DNA of 64,000 nucleotides from NCBI RefSeq assembly GCF_001592965.1, contig NZ_LRPC01000001.1, positions 1,302,001 to 1,366,000 of the forward strand, in the 5' to 3' direction. Below are positions 12,639-37,081 of the stretch, piece by piece (positions within the stretch are counted from its first letter, which is position 1; each line of letters begins with the position of its first letter). The position numbers were made by a program, and so were the translations under genes. The DNA comes from Roseivirga spongicola (GTDB taxonomy: Bacteria > Bacteroidota > Bacteroidia > Cytophagales > Cyclobacteriaceae). The notes beneath the pieces were generated by a model. It did not search any database and had not been told where the DNA came from. It saw only the letters and a program-made list of their open reading frames with translations.

Positions 12639-13988
12639 TTACAACAACTCATTCGCCAAATTAGCTAGCTCAGATCTCTCACCTTTTTCTAGTGTGATAT
12701 GCGCGTAAAGCGGATGGTCTTTCACTCGGTCTATCAGGTAAGAAAGGCCGTTAGACTGAGAATCTAAATAAGGTGTATCAATCTGATGGATATCTCCTGT
12801 AAAGACAATCTTGGTGTTTTCTCCAGCTCTGGTAATGATGGTTTTAATTTCATGCGGAGTGAGGTTTTGAGCCTCGTCCACAATAAAGAAGATGTTGGAC
12901 AAACTTCTACCTCTAATATAAGCCAGAGGAGTGATCAACAGCTTTTCCTTATTCACCATTTCGGTGATGGCTTTAAACTCCTTGTCGGTCTCCTTGTACT
13001 GGTTTTGGATAAACTTCAGGTTGTCCCAAAGTGGCTCCATATAAGGGTTCAACTTGGATTTGATATCGCCAGGTAGGTAACCAATGTCTTTATTGCTCAA
13101 TGGCACGATCGGTCGAGCCAAATAAATCTGCTTGAATTCTCTGCGTTGTTCCAAAGCTCCGGCAAGGGTAAGGAGCGTTTTTCCAGTACCTGCAACCCCT
13201 TGAATGGTCACTAACTTAACCTCAGGATTCATGATGGCATGAATAGCGAAAGTTTGTTCAGCATTCTTTGGTTTCACCCCAGAAACAGGACGCTTGTCCA
13301 CTTTTTCAATGGTATCGTCAATCGAGTTGTAGTATGCAAGTACGGAGTTTCTATCGCTCTTAAGAATGAAGTATTGATTCGGCTGAGCCTTCTTTCTCTT
13401 CAGAACATCTTTTGGCGCCAAGGTGCCATCTTCATAAAGGTGGTTGATGAGGTCTGAATCAATCTTCTCAATTTCAATCTTTCCTTTGCGAAGAGAGTCT
13501 ACATTCTTAATTTTTCCGGTTTCGTAGTCTTCGGCAGGTAGCCCCATCGATTTCGCCTTCAACCGAAGGTTAATGTCTTTAGAAACCAAGATTACGTTTC
13601 TACCCGGGTTTTCCTCTTTCAACCTAAGTGCGGCATTAAGAATTCGGTGGTCGTTTTTTCTTTCACCAAAAACCTCATTGGCATCGTGCTGACTTTCACC
13701 ACTTCCGGCCTCCATCACCACTTTAAAGCTTCCACGCGTTTTCCCATTAAGTGGAATCCAGTCTTGCAGAGACTTATCCTTTGCCAGCTTATCTAGCAAG
13801 CGGGTGAACTCTCTAGCTTCAAAGTTTTTGGTATCGTTGCCCTTCTTGAAAGTGTCTAATTCTTCGAGCACAGTGATTGGGAGGCCAATATCATGCTCCT
13901 CAAAATTCATCAGTGCAATGTGTTCGTAAAGGATAACGGAGGTGTCTAGTACAAAAATCTTCCGGTCAGTCTTCTTCGCTCTCGGCAT
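12639..13988 (-). CDS. PIN-domain/PhoH-type ATPase (YlaK/PhoH2-like)
   Basis: Two-domain protein: an N-terminal PIN ribonuclease domain (FVLDTSVILYEH at residues 12-23, with further acidic residues at DANE and KDIN) and a C-terminal PhoH helicase-like ATPase with Walker A GVAGTGKT at 264-271 and Walker B-like FFIVDEAQNLTPHEIK, then FTGDIHQID. PhoH2 proteins of this type unwind and cleave RNA in mycobacteria. At 449 residues it is complete. It stands alone, with the DUF559 element upstream of its start. Confidence 0.9.
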   Translation of the reverse strand: MPRAKKTDRKIFVLDTSVILYEHIALMNFEEHDIGLPITVLEELDTFKKGNDTKNFEAREFTRLLDKLAKDKSLQDWIPLNGKTRGSFKVVMEAGSGESQHDANEVFGERKNDHRILNAALRLKEENPGRNVILVSKDINLRLKAKSMGLPAEDYETGKIKNVDSLRKGKIEIEKIDSDLINHLYEDGTLAPKDVLKRKKAQPNQYFILKSDRNSVLAYYNSIDDTIEKVDKRPVSGVKPKNAEQTFAIHAIMNPEVKLVTIQGVAGTGKTLLTLAGALEQRREFKQIYLARPIVPLSNKDIGYLPGDIKSKLNPYMEPLWDNLKFIQNQYKETDKEFKAITEMVNKEKLLITPLAYIRGRSLSNIFFIVDEAQNLTPHEIKTIITRAGENTKIVFTGDIHQIDTPYLDSQSNGLSYLIDRVKDHPLYAHITLEKGERSELANLANELL

Positions 13989-14087: not shown

Positions 14088-14123
14088 TGACCTCCACCAA
14101 CCTCCTCCTTGCCAAGGAGGAGG
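14088..14123. repeat. Type A palindromic repeat, left flank of DUF559 gene
   Basis: Begins TGACCTCC and contains a perfect hairpin CCTCCTCCTT/AAGGAGGAGG at 14101-14123 with a three-base loop. The last base of the hairpin directly abuts the stop codon of the DUF559 gene. The same design, a TGACC end plus a CT-rich/AG-rich hairpin, recurs at 14601-14642 and in the intergenic copies at 35950-36037 and 40327-40426. Confidence 0.75.
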
Positions 14124-14486
14124 CTAGACTCGTGACGCGATGTAATTTTGAATTACCTCGATTACATTTTCAATTTCGAATTCAACTTGTCTATTGGTGA
14201 ATCTGATGGTGTTATAGCCAAGTTCAGCCAACTCCCGATCTCTTATTTGGTCATTATCATAGTTTTCAGGCTTATTATGAATTTCACCATCTACTTCGAT
14301 AATGAGTTTAAAAGTAGCGCAATAAAAATCTACGATATAGTGATTGAGGCTGTGTTGTCTCCTGAACTTTATGCCATTAAGTTTCTTGTTCGCCAACCGC
14401 TTCCAAAGCAACTCCTCGTACTTAGTTGGATTATTCCGAAGCTCCCTTCTTCTTTCCTTAAGATAATTCAGATTATTGATTCTCAT
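14124..14486 (-). CDS. DUF559 (Vsr-like fold) endonuclease-domain protein
   Basis: 120-residue protein of the DUF559 family, related to the very-short-patch-repair endonuclease fold. Visible hallmarks are NPTKYEELLWKRLANKK near the N-terminus, GIKFRRQHSLNHYIVDFYC, and the core IIEVDGEIHN at about 80-89, in which the acidic residues and the earlier Glu and Asp form the PD-(D/E)XK-like site. It ends with RDRELAELGYNTIRFTN, also typical. The biological role of stand-alone DUF559 proteins is unknown. It lies between two palindromic repeats and has no partner gene such as a methylase, so classical restriction is unlikely. Confidence 0.85.
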   Translation of the reverse strand: MRINNLNYLKERRRELRNNPTKYEELLWKRLANKKLNGIKFRRQHSLNHYIVDFYCATFKLIIEVDGEIHNKPENYDNDQIRDRELAELGYNTIRFTNRQVEFEIENVIEVIQNYIASRV

Positions 14487-14600
14487 TTGCCGTGTGTGAT
14501 AAGAATCAAATTACTAAAATCAGTGACAATACCCTTAGGCATGGAGCTGTTTTACTCTATCCAAGAGTCGTGAATAAGGAACGTAGACTTCAAACTTATC

Positions 14601-14642
14601 TAGTCCTCCTAAACTAGGAGGACGCGCGAAGCGAGGAGGTCA
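14601..14642. repeat. Type A palindromic repeat, right flank of DUF559 gene
   Basis: Contains hairpin GTCCTCCT/AGGAGGAC at 14603-14623 with a five-base loop, then ends GGAGGTCA at 14635-14642, the inverse of the left end. The last three bases are, on the minus strand, the TGA stop of the SSS transporter gene, so the element and the gene end coincide. Confidence 0.75.
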
Positions 14643-16415
14643 GAAGGTCAACTTTTTCCAAGCCTTAACTAGAGTAATGGTACTTATCAAAACAATCGCT
14701 AACCAGATTAATCCATACTCTATGTTACCATAGACGAACATTCCAGTAGCGAAGAGCAAAGCGTAAATAAGCACAGTACCTGCAAACATCGCCAGCAAGT
14801 CAACGCTGAATCGGCCAATGCCTGGCTCCAGTTTTTCACCTTTTGCCTGTGCTTGCTTTCTCAAGCCATTCCATCCCTTACCATAAGGTTTTACAAGGTT
14901 GAAGAATGAAACCAGTGTTTTATAGTCGGTCGGTTTGGTCATTAAAGTAACTAGCACCCAAACAGCCGTGGTTACTCCAACACTTAGTAATAGTTGGTAT
15001 TCACTAGAAATGGAGGTGAGGCTTTCTGGTCCGAACTTGAAAAGCAGTGCCAGAATGAATGAAACCACCATACCTGCGATTTCAGAATAAGCATTAATTC
15101 TCCACCAGAACCAACGCAAAATGAAGATAGAACCAGTACCTGCACCAATAGAAAGCAGAATCTGGAAGGCATCATATGCACTGGTGAGCACCAAGGCAAA
15201 CAGGCCTGCAAATACCATGAGAATCACTGTGGAGATTCTACCTACGTTCACCAATTCTTTCTCAGTAGCTTCTGGCTTAATGAATCTTTGATAAAAGTCG
15301 AATGCTACGTAAGAAGAACCCCAGTTGAGGTGAGTGGAAATAGTAGACATATAGGCTGCAATCAATGAGGCAATCACAATTCCGAGAAGGCCCTTAGGCA
15401 GCGTCAATAACATGGCAGAGTAGCCCAAATCGTGACCTATTTTGCTTTCGCTTATTCCTGGAAACGCCTCTTTAATAGAAGCCAAGTCAGGGTAAACCAC
15501 CAAGGATGCCAAAGCGATCAAAATCCATGGCCAAGGTCTTAGTGCATAATGAGTGATGTTGAAAAGGAAGGTTGCCGAAACCGCATGCTTCTCATTTTTA
15601 GAAGAGAGCATTCTTTGGGCAATGTATCCTCCGCCTCCAGGCTCAGCACCCGGATACCAAACACTCCACCATTGCACAGCAATAGGGATAATCAATAGGG
15701 TGATAAACAATTCTCTATTATCGATACTTGGAATTAAGTCTAATTTTGAAGCAACTTCAGGTCTGGTTAAGAGGGCATCAAGACCACCAACTTCTGGTAA
15801 ATTGATGATGTAAATAGCCGCAGCCACGGAACCTACCATAGCTACTAAAAACTGAAGGAAGTCAGTCAGTATAACACCTCTTAAGCCACCGAGGGAACTA
15901 TAGGCCACAGTAATTATGGAGGCGTAAACCACGGTTTTCCATGGTTCTAATCCGAACATCACTTCACCAATTTTAATGGCGGCTAATGAGACCGAGGCCA
16001 TTATCATAATGTTGAAGAATACGCCTAAGTAAATGGCTCTAAAGCCTCTCAGAAAAGCTGCTTCTTTGCCTGAATATCTCTTTTCGTAGAACTCTAAATC
16101 AGTTAAAACTCCGGACTTTCTCCACAGCTTGGCATAAACAAAAACGGTTAACATACCGGTAATCAAAAATGCCCACCAAACCCAGTTACCAGCAACTCCA
16201 TTTTGGCGGACAATATCTGTTACTAAGTTGGGGGTATCAGCAGAAAAGGTAGTGGCTACCATAGATACTCCCAGTAGCCACCAAGGCATATTTCTCCCTG
16301 AGAGGAAGAATTCTTTAGAAGATGAACCCGCTTTTTTCGAAACAATCAGACCGATAATTAAAAAAACAGTGAAGAATAGGAGAATGATGATCCAATCGAG
16401 CGAAGAAATATTCAT
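14640..16415 (-). CDS. Sodium:solute symporter (SSS family), probably sugar
   Basis: Inner-membrane sodium-coupled importer of 591 residues with about 14 hydrophobic segments. Family features are ATTFSADTPNLVTDIVRQNG near residue 60, the GGLRGVILTDFLQFLVAM segment (about 185-205) and GPESLTS-containing C-terminal helices. It is divergent from a nucleotidyltransferase and NahK-like kinase gene pair across 83 bases, which suggests that the substrate is a hexose or hexosamine that these enzymes then activate. The stop codon lies in the end of a type A repeat; the C-terminus (KAWKKLTF) looks natural. Confidence 0.88.
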   Translation of the reverse strand: MNISSLDWIIILLFFTVFLIIGLIVSKKAGSSSKEFFLSGRNMPWWLLGVSMVATTFSADTPNLVTDIVRQNGVAGNWVWWAFLITGMLTVFVYAKLWRKSGVLTDLEFYEKRYSGKEAAFLRGFRAIYLGVFFNIMIMASVSLAAIKIGEVMFGLEPWKTVVYASIITVAYSSLGGLRGVILTDFLQFLVAMVGSVAAAIYIINLPEVGGLDALLTRPEVASKLDLIPSIDNRELFITLLIIPIAVQWWSVWYPGAEPGGGGYIAQRMLSSKNEKHAVSATFLFNITHYALRPWPWILIALASLVVYPDLASIKEAFPGISESKIGHDLGYSAMLLTLPKGLLGIVIASLIAAYMSTISTHLNWGSSYVAFDFYQRFIKPEATEKELVNVGRISTVILMVFAGLFALVLTSAYDAFQILLSIGAGTGSIFILRWFWWRINAYSEIAGMVVSFILALLFKFGPESLTSISSEYQLLLSVGVTTAVWVLVTLMTKPTDYKTLVSFFNLVKPYGKGWNGLRKQAQAKGEKLEPGIGRFSVDLLAMFAGTVLIYALLFATGMFVYGNIEYGLIWLAIVLISTITLVKAWKKLTF

Positions 16416-35949: not shown

Positions 35950-36037
35950 CCTCCCCTTACCAATTGGAGGACTAAGCCTTAAAGATTCATCTAAACTAAT
36001 TCCCCTCCTTTTTTCAAGGAGGGGCTAGGGGTGGTCA
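35950..36037. repeat. Type A repeat, copy without gene, between rhomboid and rlmN
   Basis: Two hairpins, CCTCCcctt/aattGGAGG at 35950-35970 and CCCCTCCTT/AAGGAGGGG at 36002-36024, then CTAGGGGTGGTCA. Bases 35994-36035 match the reverse complement of 40383-40424 over 42 positions with one mismatch. The final TCA is the stop codon (TGA) of rlmN. It resembles the DUF559 cassette with the gene missing. Confidence 0.8.
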
Positions 36038-37081
36038 GCTTTTATTCGCTAACTGCCCGCAAGCGGCATCAATATCTTTACCTCGGCTTCTACGAACGTT
36101 TACTATAATTCCTTTAGCCTCCAAAATACGTTGATACATATCTAGACTTTTAGGGTCAGCTTGTTGGTATTCGCCATCATCAATGGGGTTATATTCAATG
36201 ATGTTCACCTTAGAAGCCACTTTTCCACAGTATTTAGCTAGAGCCTTGGCATGTCTTTCATCGTCATTGATGTTTTTCCACACCACGTATTCAAAAGTGA
36301 TTTTTCTGCCAGTTTTTCGATGCCAATATTGAAGTGACTCAGCCAACTCAGCCAAATTACTTTTATCATTGATAGGCATCATTTTGCTTCTGGTTTCATC
36401 AATAGCCGAGTGAAGCGAAACCGCTAAGTTGAATTTCACTTCATCATCAGCCAGTTGCTTAATCATTTTAGGAATACCCACTGTAGAGAGCGTAATACGC
36501 TTTGGAGACATACCTAGACCATCGGGAGAAGTGATTTTATCAATCGATTCGAGAACGTTTTTGTAGTTCAACAGAGGTTCTCCCATTCCCATATATACAA
36601 TGTTGGTCAATGGGCGGTCAAAGTAAAGTTCTCCTTCGTCTTTAATGGCTACTACCTGATCGTAAATTTCATCGGCATTAAGGTTTCTCATGCGCTTAAG
36701 ACGTGCAGTCGCGCAGAAATTACAATCGAGGCTACAACCTACCTGAGAAGAGATACACGCAGTAATTCTAGATTCTGTCGGAATGAGTACTGACTCCACT
36801 ATCATTCCATCGTGCAGTTTTACCGCATTTTTGATGGTACCGTCAGAGCTCCGTTGCATCTCATCTACCTTAATGTGATTGATAGCGAAATGCTCTTTCA
36901 GAAGCTCACGGGTTTGCAGAGAAATATTGGTCATTTGGTCGAAATCTTTAGCCGATTTCTTCCATAGCCATTCATAAACTTGCTTGGCGCGAAATGCTTT
37001 GTCGCCAATGGAAACAAAAAAGTCCTGAATTTCTTCCAGACTCAATTTTCTAATATCCTGCTTCTTTACCTGTGCCTCCAT
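36035..37081 (-). CDS. rlmN: Dual-specificity 23S rRNA/tRNA adenine C2 methyltransferase
   Basis: Radical SAM enzyme that methylates C2 of A2503 in 23S rRNA and A37 in some tRNAs. The [4Fe-4S] cysteines are C116, C120 and C123 in CSLDCNFC, and the catalytic C-terminal Cys is in DAACGQLANK. The IVYMGMGEPLLN segment binds SAM. The 348-residue length is standard. The TGA stop is part of a type A repeat end. A 17-base gap separates the start from the next upstream gene, a thioesterase. Confidence 0.96.
   Translation of the reverse strand: MEAQVKKQDIRKLSLEEIQDFFVSIGDKAFRAKQVYEWLWKKSAKDFDQMTNISLQTRELLKEHFAINHIKVDEMQRSSDGTIKNAVKLHDGMIVESVLIPTESRITACISSQVGCSLDCNFCATARLKRMRNLNADEIYDQVVAIKDEGELYFDRPLTNIVYMGMGEPLLNYKNVLESIDKITSPDGLGMSPKRITLSTVGIPKMIKQLADDEVKFNLAVSLHSAIDETRSKMMPINDKSNLAELAESLQYWHRKTGRKITFEYVVWKNINDDERHAKALAKYCGKVASKVNIIEYNPIDDGEYQQADPKSLDMYQRILEAKGIIVNVRRSRGKDIDAACGQLANKS

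Follow-up and report, generated by a model that had tools for sequence, protein, structure and literature searches.

A DUF559 nuclease gene between triplex-capable hairpin ends in Roseivirga spongicola: a candidate small mobile element

Organization of the DUF559 locus

The window, a 64-kb stretch of the Roseivirga spongicola genome, contains a single intact DUF559 gene between two hairpins of the pyrimidine/purine type, bounded on the outside by TGACCTCC (14088-14095) and its exact reverse complement GGAGGTCA (14635-14642), as read directly from the sequence (Table 1). A preliminary description of this DNA had proposed such a block at 14088-14642, with inverse ends, a hairpin inside each and one DUF559 gene, and all of these parts are found at those coordinates. 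The left hairpin has 11-bp arms and a 1-nt loop, and the right hairpin has 9-bp arms and a 3-nt loop. Two contacts with coding sequence that it had pointed out are likewise confirmed: the left hairpin ends at 14123 and the DUF559 stop codon abuts it (the ORF spans 14124-14486, minus strand), and the symporter gene, whose ORF spans 14640-16415 on the minus strand, has its stop codon in the final 3 nt of GGAGGTCA.

Table 1. Features of the DUF559 block and its surroundings in the window.
Feature	Position	Strand	Basis
3' end of element (gene orientation)	14088-14123	-	11-bp hairpin 14101-14123 and outer purine third strand 14088-14100 on the minus strand
DUF559 gene, 120 aa, PD-(D/E)XK/EDxHD-type nuclease	14124-14486	-	PF04480 match and fold
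Leader, 5' end hairpin to start codon	14487-14602	-	Sequence
5' end of element (gene orientation)	14603-14642	+	9-bp hairpin 14603-14623, 11-nt spacer, outer GGAGGTCA
Solo repeat copy of the window-block family, no adjoining DUF559	36002-36040	+	CCCCTCC-N9-GGAGGGG hairpin, third strand GGGGTGGTCA 8/9
Sodium:solute symporter, left neighbour by transcription	14640-16415	-	Element touches its stop codon
PIN/PhoH protein, right neighbour	12639-13988	-	Follows symporter in 7 genus-mates without room for DUF559

The pattern CCTCCTN5AGGAGG, with at most one mismatch, occurs twice in the 64 kb, both times in this block, compared with a mean of 0.10 in shuffled sequence, and none of 100 shuffles reaches two. 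In folding as single-stranded DNA, both ends outperform shuffled sequence (z -4.2 and -2.7). A hairpin with an adjacent purine third strand, the combination that defines the PIT/TM triplex repeats, is present at the left end, where the antiparallel strand fits at 9/9 positions (equalled by 1 of 5000 shuffled flanks), and at the solo copy at 36002 (8/9); the right end reaches only 7/9, across a long 9-nt loop (equalled by 74 of 5000). The hairpin cores of the two ends are only 77-79% alike, so the block looks like an older copy; with its ends diverged it is probably old, and its nuclease is intact.

As a stand-alone argument the 8-nt inverted ends were rejected as too weak, because at least nine others of this length occur within 1.3 kb (among the 25 inverted pairs listed). 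What gives them weight is the recurrence of this outer segment, as TGACC[A/T]CC or inverted, beside other hairpin copies in the genome. The exact CCTCCTN5AGGAGG pattern is present at nine places genome-wide, two of them in the block, and by eye the outer segment lies at four of the other seven; the solo copy at 36002 is also bordered by a segment of this type. Allowing one mismatch, the genome holds 18 occurrences versus 6 for the reversed pattern. A family search of the same genome returned five DUF559 matches, four of them strong. By eye, three of the strong copies have C-rich hairpins on both sides (the window copy, L004, and a copy lying in frame inside methionine synthase, MetH), and around the fourth, L002, the C-rich repeats look different.

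The DUF559 nuclease

The window protein belongs to the PF04480/YcjD family (E 2.9e-34, 117.7 bits against a curated cut-off of 20.6). Pfam recovers only DUF559 and MTES_1575 on the one gene of the block, with no HUH Y1 transposase. Residues T21, E24, W28, Q44, D53, E64, D66, G67, H70, G90, and R95, invariant in 33 aligned relatives, are all present. The structure model (pLDDT 88.9) finds its nearest solved folds in the Neisseria DUF559 protein 3hrl and then in the homing endonuclease I-Bth0305I, 3r3p (profile E 1.5e-6; Foldseek E 1.5e-4, TM 0.66/0.79). A defence library gave only weak matches, one of them a named homing endonuclease (E 1.8e-4).

The fold of Vsr, the very-short-patch repair endonuclease, is more distant (TM about 0.5), and this likeness raises the reading of DUF559 as a housekeeping enzyme, a Vsr-like repair or structure-resolving nuclease kept near triplex DNA to process it. 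Such a role would suit the Enterobacterales ycjD gene, an old resident, and the Caulobacter DUF559 protein VsrA, which is reported to cause DNA damage in vivo when a cytosine methylase is missing (PMC12907096). Unlike Vsr, DUF559 stands without a nearby Dcm-type methylase partner and in a mobile context: within the fetched flanks of 120 DUF559 loci, a Dcm-like cytosine-C5 methylase occurs once, and not in the window, and a Vsr gene at none. Patchy presence, in-frame insertion in unrelated genes, and gene-less derivatives, all described below, are unexpected for a repair gene, and we consider this reading very unlikely.

Association with C/T-armed hairpins across bacteria

DUF559 genes are associated with C/T-armed hairpins well beyond Roseivirga. 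The survey covered 80 loci from named genomes, which are the best matches to E. coli YcjD and rich in Enterobacterales copies, and 40 Bacteroidota loci, the highest-scoring of a single list with each genome represented once; dropping loci with less than 300 nt of flank (6 of 80 and 1 of 40) left 113 testable. Plasmid loci L230-L237 were used for annotation only and stand outside every count. The criteria for a hairpin were a position no more than 300 nt from the domain, an arm of 7 bp or longer, a loop of 12 nt or shorter, and a 5' arm with four or more C and a pyrimidine content of 85% or higher. By this measure 50 of 113 loci, from several phyla, have hairpins on both sides, whereas none of 678 random windows or 616 small ORFs (80-250 aa) does. 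The named set (n = 74) has 38 upstream, 56 downstream, and 27 on both sides, and the Bacteroidota set (n = 39) has 28, 27, and 23. The corresponding counts for random windows are 6, 8, and 0 of 444 at named loci and 3, 2, and 0 of 234 at Bacteroidota loci; for small ORFs they are 4, 3, and 0 of 443 and 1, 4, and 0 of 173.

The two-sided signature is missing in 63 of the 113 loci. These include the 29 Enterobacterales-type loci, which are one old resident gene (upstream 2, downstream 23, both 0); the other 45 named loci have a hairpin on either side in 42 cases and on both in 27. After dereplication at 70% identity, 67 of 78 loci have a hairpin on either side and 39 on both; at 55% identity the counts are 27 and 17 of 34. 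DUF559 genes lying outside such repeats, which would speak against an element of the kind first suggested, are thus the minority at 70% dereplication. The second doubt, that the repeats might be as common beside unrelated genes, receives a mixed answer: they are far rarer there, but solo copies do adjoin unrelated genes. In E. coli K-12, ycjD (L080:2908-3328) has its start in a different long hairpin, CACCTCATTCTGACAA...TTGTCAGAATGAGGTG, and its stop in a CCCTCTCCC hairpin.

Overlap of the hairpins with the DUF559 stop codon is frequent, as would be expected if a small gene were simply surrounded by transcription terminators or regulators of the usual kind, and termination was the guess offered for CCCTCTCCC palindromes in the Enterobacter sp. 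638 report (PMC2869309). Other small ORFs at the same loci stand without such hairpins, and inside genes the DUF559 hairpins are translated in frame; they are matched left to right and carry a third strand. Holder et al. reported no terminator or promoter activity of these motifs (PMC4666352). Ordinary terminators are therefore hardly a credible explanation.

Pairing, third strand, and co-variation of the ends

The two ends of a unit are paired. Among the 50 two-sided loci, the left end matches its own right partner best in 31, and none of 100,000 permutations equals the summed score. Hairpin-to-hairpin lengths run from 396 to 810 nt, with a median of 516 nt. Orientation is not fixed: the inverted reading is better in 29 loci and the direct one in 21, and where both third strands could be placed (32 loci; 18 more gave no placement of both) the relation is inverted in 19 and direct in 13. 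A plain terminal-inverted-repeat model is weakened by the occurrence of ends in direct as well as inverted relation.

The third strand was scored next to the hairpin arm as G on G and A or T on A, at a threshold of 88% or better. An antiparallel purine third strand is present at 121 of 152 hairpins of DUF559 loci, versus 3.6% with shuffled flanks, and, when the common CCCTCTC arm type is set aside, at 55 of 76, versus 2.9%. In 140 of 152 hairpins the third strand is a closer match to the arm it belongs to than to other arms. Arm similarity follows DUF559 identity (Mantel r 0.52, 0 of 2000 permutations), with r 0.42 for pairs below 60% identity and 0.21 below 45% (0 of 2000 permutations each). 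An arm-type test, which is partly circular, found the CCTTCTCC hairpin in 8 of 41 genomes, including all five whose sampled DUF559 has that arm; in three of these five it is confined to DUF559 itself. From the co-variation of nuclease and ends, together with the kinship to homing and Vsr nucleases, we infer that DUF559 may act on the hairpins beside it, as the preliminary description had suggested; joint inheritance alone could also produce the co-variation.

Residence in host genes and empty sites

DUF559 lies inside an open frame longer than 350 aa at 22 of the 120 loci, and all 22 hosts were identified by Pfam. They are leucyl-tRNA synthetase (LeuRS, 3), another class I synthetase (3, isoleucyl by eye), PriA (3), GHMP kinase (2, IspE by eye), a GATase_5 protein (1), an M23 peptidase (1), and nine restriction-modification proteins (L190, L191, L193, L196, L198, L204, L218, L222, and L228). 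Recurring hosts are IleRS (3), PriA (3), HsdR (2), and HsdM (2). Two frames have additional domains: a class I tRNA synthetase frame with DUF559 and GNAT acetyltransferase domains (L160:9047-13348), and a single frame with a GHMP kinase domain and two DUF559 domains (L159:9878-11608).

The units are insertions, and sites without them exist in relatives, in line with the empty sites that the preliminary description had anticipated; these were found at LeuRS, at MetH, at an intergenic locus of genome G222, and at the window locus. At the window locus, 18 symporter loci were read, nine with PhoH within the fetched flank. Seven relatives have 125-319 nt between the symporter and PhoH genes, too little for DUF559, and G016 has a decayed DUF559 remnant in which the outer GAGGTCA is kept (by eye). 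At MetH, 18 loci of the same genus comprise four filled (G000, G013, G015, and G018), ten empty, two gene-less remnants with in-frame ends (G004 and G006), and two not parsed. For the G222 intergenic unit, 16 relatives (up to 95% identical) were examined; both flanks could be read in 15, and all 15 lack the unit. The site measures 598 nt in G222 versus 131-265 nt in these 15, with an apparent target loss of about 130 nt, and, as in the window, the outer end is the stop codon of the neighbouring gene. By eye, no target site duplication is seen at the G222 copy and minis, LeuRS, or MetH, unlike at a classical DDE insertion sequence. Since no duplication is seen and small target stretches are sometimes lost, repair-driven insertion is favoured over a DDE transposase. 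E. coli was rejected as an empty-site system: of 5426 genomes, 3362 contain a ycjD segment (at least 80% coverage), but there are other kinds of variation in the fabI-ycjD neighbourhood.

For LeuRS, 100 genomes of one family were searched and 30 loci fetched: five have the unit (one degenerate), 24 do not, and one was not parsed. The insert has triplex ends at its beginning and end. Carriers occupy scattered positions in the LeuRS tree and have homologous inserts with a common leader and nuclease; G286 carries the insert and its 88%-identical sister does not. The scattered pattern fits either homing or an old insertion followed by losses. The linker that hosts DUF559 has other in-frame repeat-like inserts in L253, L263, and L246, relatives of G160, exemplified by the VIASEAKQSPTSE peptide, and may be regarded as an insertion hot spot because such inserts occupy the same linker. 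In L032, the LeuRS of G055, a DUF559 unit is accompanied by a second in-frame insert of repeat ends only (by eye).

These distributions bear on the strongest rival reading, in which DUF559 is a free-standing homing endonuclease that cleaves the unoccupied allele of a single host gene and enters it through gene conversion, with the hairpins as by-products or binding sites and not drivers. Free-standing homing genes exist, and a missing intron or intein is compatible with homing. The EDxHD homing endonucleases, including I-Bth0305I, the nearest solved fold beyond DUF559, have a related fold, and like these enzymes and the inteins the DUF559 units insert in conserved genes and are patchily distributed at one site; homologous LeuRS inserts at one site in scattered lineages and the recurring host genes point the same way. 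The patchy LeuRS pattern could also be an old insertion with losses, and plain homing leaves unexplained the gene-less minis at many unrelated sites, the solo copies, and the matching of left and right ends. Unlike homing endonucleases and inteins, DUF559 is accompanied by no intron or intein (no Rfam family reached gathering score in seven DUF559 loci, indicating no self-splicing intron, and the Pfam matches of the 22 in-frame hosts include no intein domain), its domain stays in the host frame, and its ends disperse without the gene. Plain homing is therefore unlikely as the general explanation; at LeuRS and similar sites it may be at work.

Gene-less derivatives and copy number

The ends also occur in derivatives without the gene. 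G222 has five DUF559 units with different end types, and seven gene-less minis have ends common to three of these units (four, one, and two minis); another three minis and five single ends were examined as well. One arm type has 42 copies, among them 13 close pairs (26 copies); DUF559 is bounded by one of these pairs, and in the remaining ones the copies are 95-221 nt apart.

Across 198 Bacteroidota genomes, hairpin-pattern matches (counts include overlapping matches) have a median of 8.5 in genomes with a strong DUF559 (n = 84; strong being an E cut-off of 1e-15 set in this analysis), 1 with weak matches only (n = 25), and 1 with none (n = 89). Strong versus weak plus none gives a Mann-Whitney p of 1e-10, compared with 0.57 for a reversed control pattern. 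The trend holds within genera g74, g41, g93, and g81, and not in g96, g71, g47, and g82; some genera show the reversed trend. Eleven genomes without a strong DUF559 have at least 10 matches, up to 72. G143 (72), G116 (47), and G182 (42) have no DUF559 match at all; there the enzyme may have been lost, or another may be used.

Repeat-rich genomes without DUF559, and the unfixed orientation of the ends, would be natural if the gene were a hitch-hiker, captured between two REP-like repeats that are moved by another enzyme such as an HUH transposase. Recurrent capture of one gene family across phyla would then be needed, whereas the small-ORF control found none in 616; moreover, the ends track the nuclease sequence, and repeat number tracks nuclease presence. 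This makes a hitch-hiking DUF559 distinctly improbable.

Relation to known systems

The closest relatives of the ends are the PIT repeats, or G/C-rich intrastrand triplex motif TM, on which earlier work was reportedly done by Hoyne and Maher. Like these, the DUF559 ends combine a CCCTCTCCC-type hairpin with a purine third strand in dispersed copies, sometimes as inverted pairs, and such a copy lies downstream of E. coli ycjD. Holder et al. (2015, PMC4666352) describe PIT/TM as abundant and linked to genome instability, treating the motif alone, with no mobility gene nearby and no function of flanking genes reported. Unlike PIT/TM as described, the repeats of the DUF559 unit bound a nuclease gene, show many arm types, and move with the gene. 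The data support the view that PIT/TM repeats may include non-autonomous relatives of the unit. A search of open-access PMC found no literature link between DUF559 and triplex repeats.

A REP/RAYT-like, nuclease-linked element had been suggested in the preliminary description. The flanking repeats, their rarity beside other genes, and the empty sites uphold this idea in part; solo repeats by unrelated genes and repeat-rich genomes without DUF559 do not fit it. That description recognized the hairpins and the gene and missed the triplex third strand, the in-frame housekeeping insertions, and the PIT/TM class described earlier. Like REP/RAYT/REPIN systems (IS200/IS605), the DUF559 unit has a nuclease or transposase gene flanked by small palindromes, non-autonomous copies dispersed singly and in pairs, and no observed target duplication; palindromes on both sides, here at 50 of 113 loci, and dispersed gene-less copies, the marks of a RAYT system, are both present. 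Unlike the RAYT, an HUH tyrosine transposase, the enzyme is PD-(D/E)XK/Vsr-like, and the ends have a triplex third strand. REP palindromes have a GTAG or CGTC tag at the foot, whereas DUF559 ends have, by eye, a C-rich head, often TTGACC or CCTCACC, and no such tag. The unit would thus work like RAYT/REPIN but is no member, because the enzyme is unrelated. Rickettsial palindromic elements are likewise short palindromic repeats found in frame within genes; unlike the DUF559 unit, they are not known to carry a nuclease gene.

Proposed mechanism

Taken together, a DUF559 gene and two cognate triplex-capable ends probably form a small mobile element that spreads by nuclease action and repair, of which the window holds an ageing copy. 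In this mechanism, DUF559 would recognize the ends, perhaps folded on single-stranded or supercoiled DNA, and would cut at or near them, or at the target site. Host break repair would then copy or paste the unit. Ends without the gene would persist as solo or paired repeats and may move in trans, and insertions in vital genes would survive only if the whole unit reads through in frame.

More tentatively, and with somewhat less than even confidence, DUF559 units could constitute an undescribed class of mobile elements: transposase-free, with a Vsr/homing-type nuclease recognizing triplex-forming ends, spreading by host break repair, settling in frame in essential genes, and giving rise to PIT/TM repeats in hundreds of bacteria, including E. 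coli. We know of no earlier mobile element with triplex-forming repeat ends, and the DUF559 unit would be the first.

Conclusion

The widespread nuclease family DUF559 (COG2852) still bears the label 'unknown function', and the DUF559 unit may account for scattered repeats of obscure origin. The in-frame copies offer natural examples of working LeuRS, IleRS, PriA, or MetH proteins with a nuclease domain inside. Should the nuclease prove to be the partner of the repeats, simple cleavage and mobility assays could address both the DUF559 and the PIT/TM puzzles.
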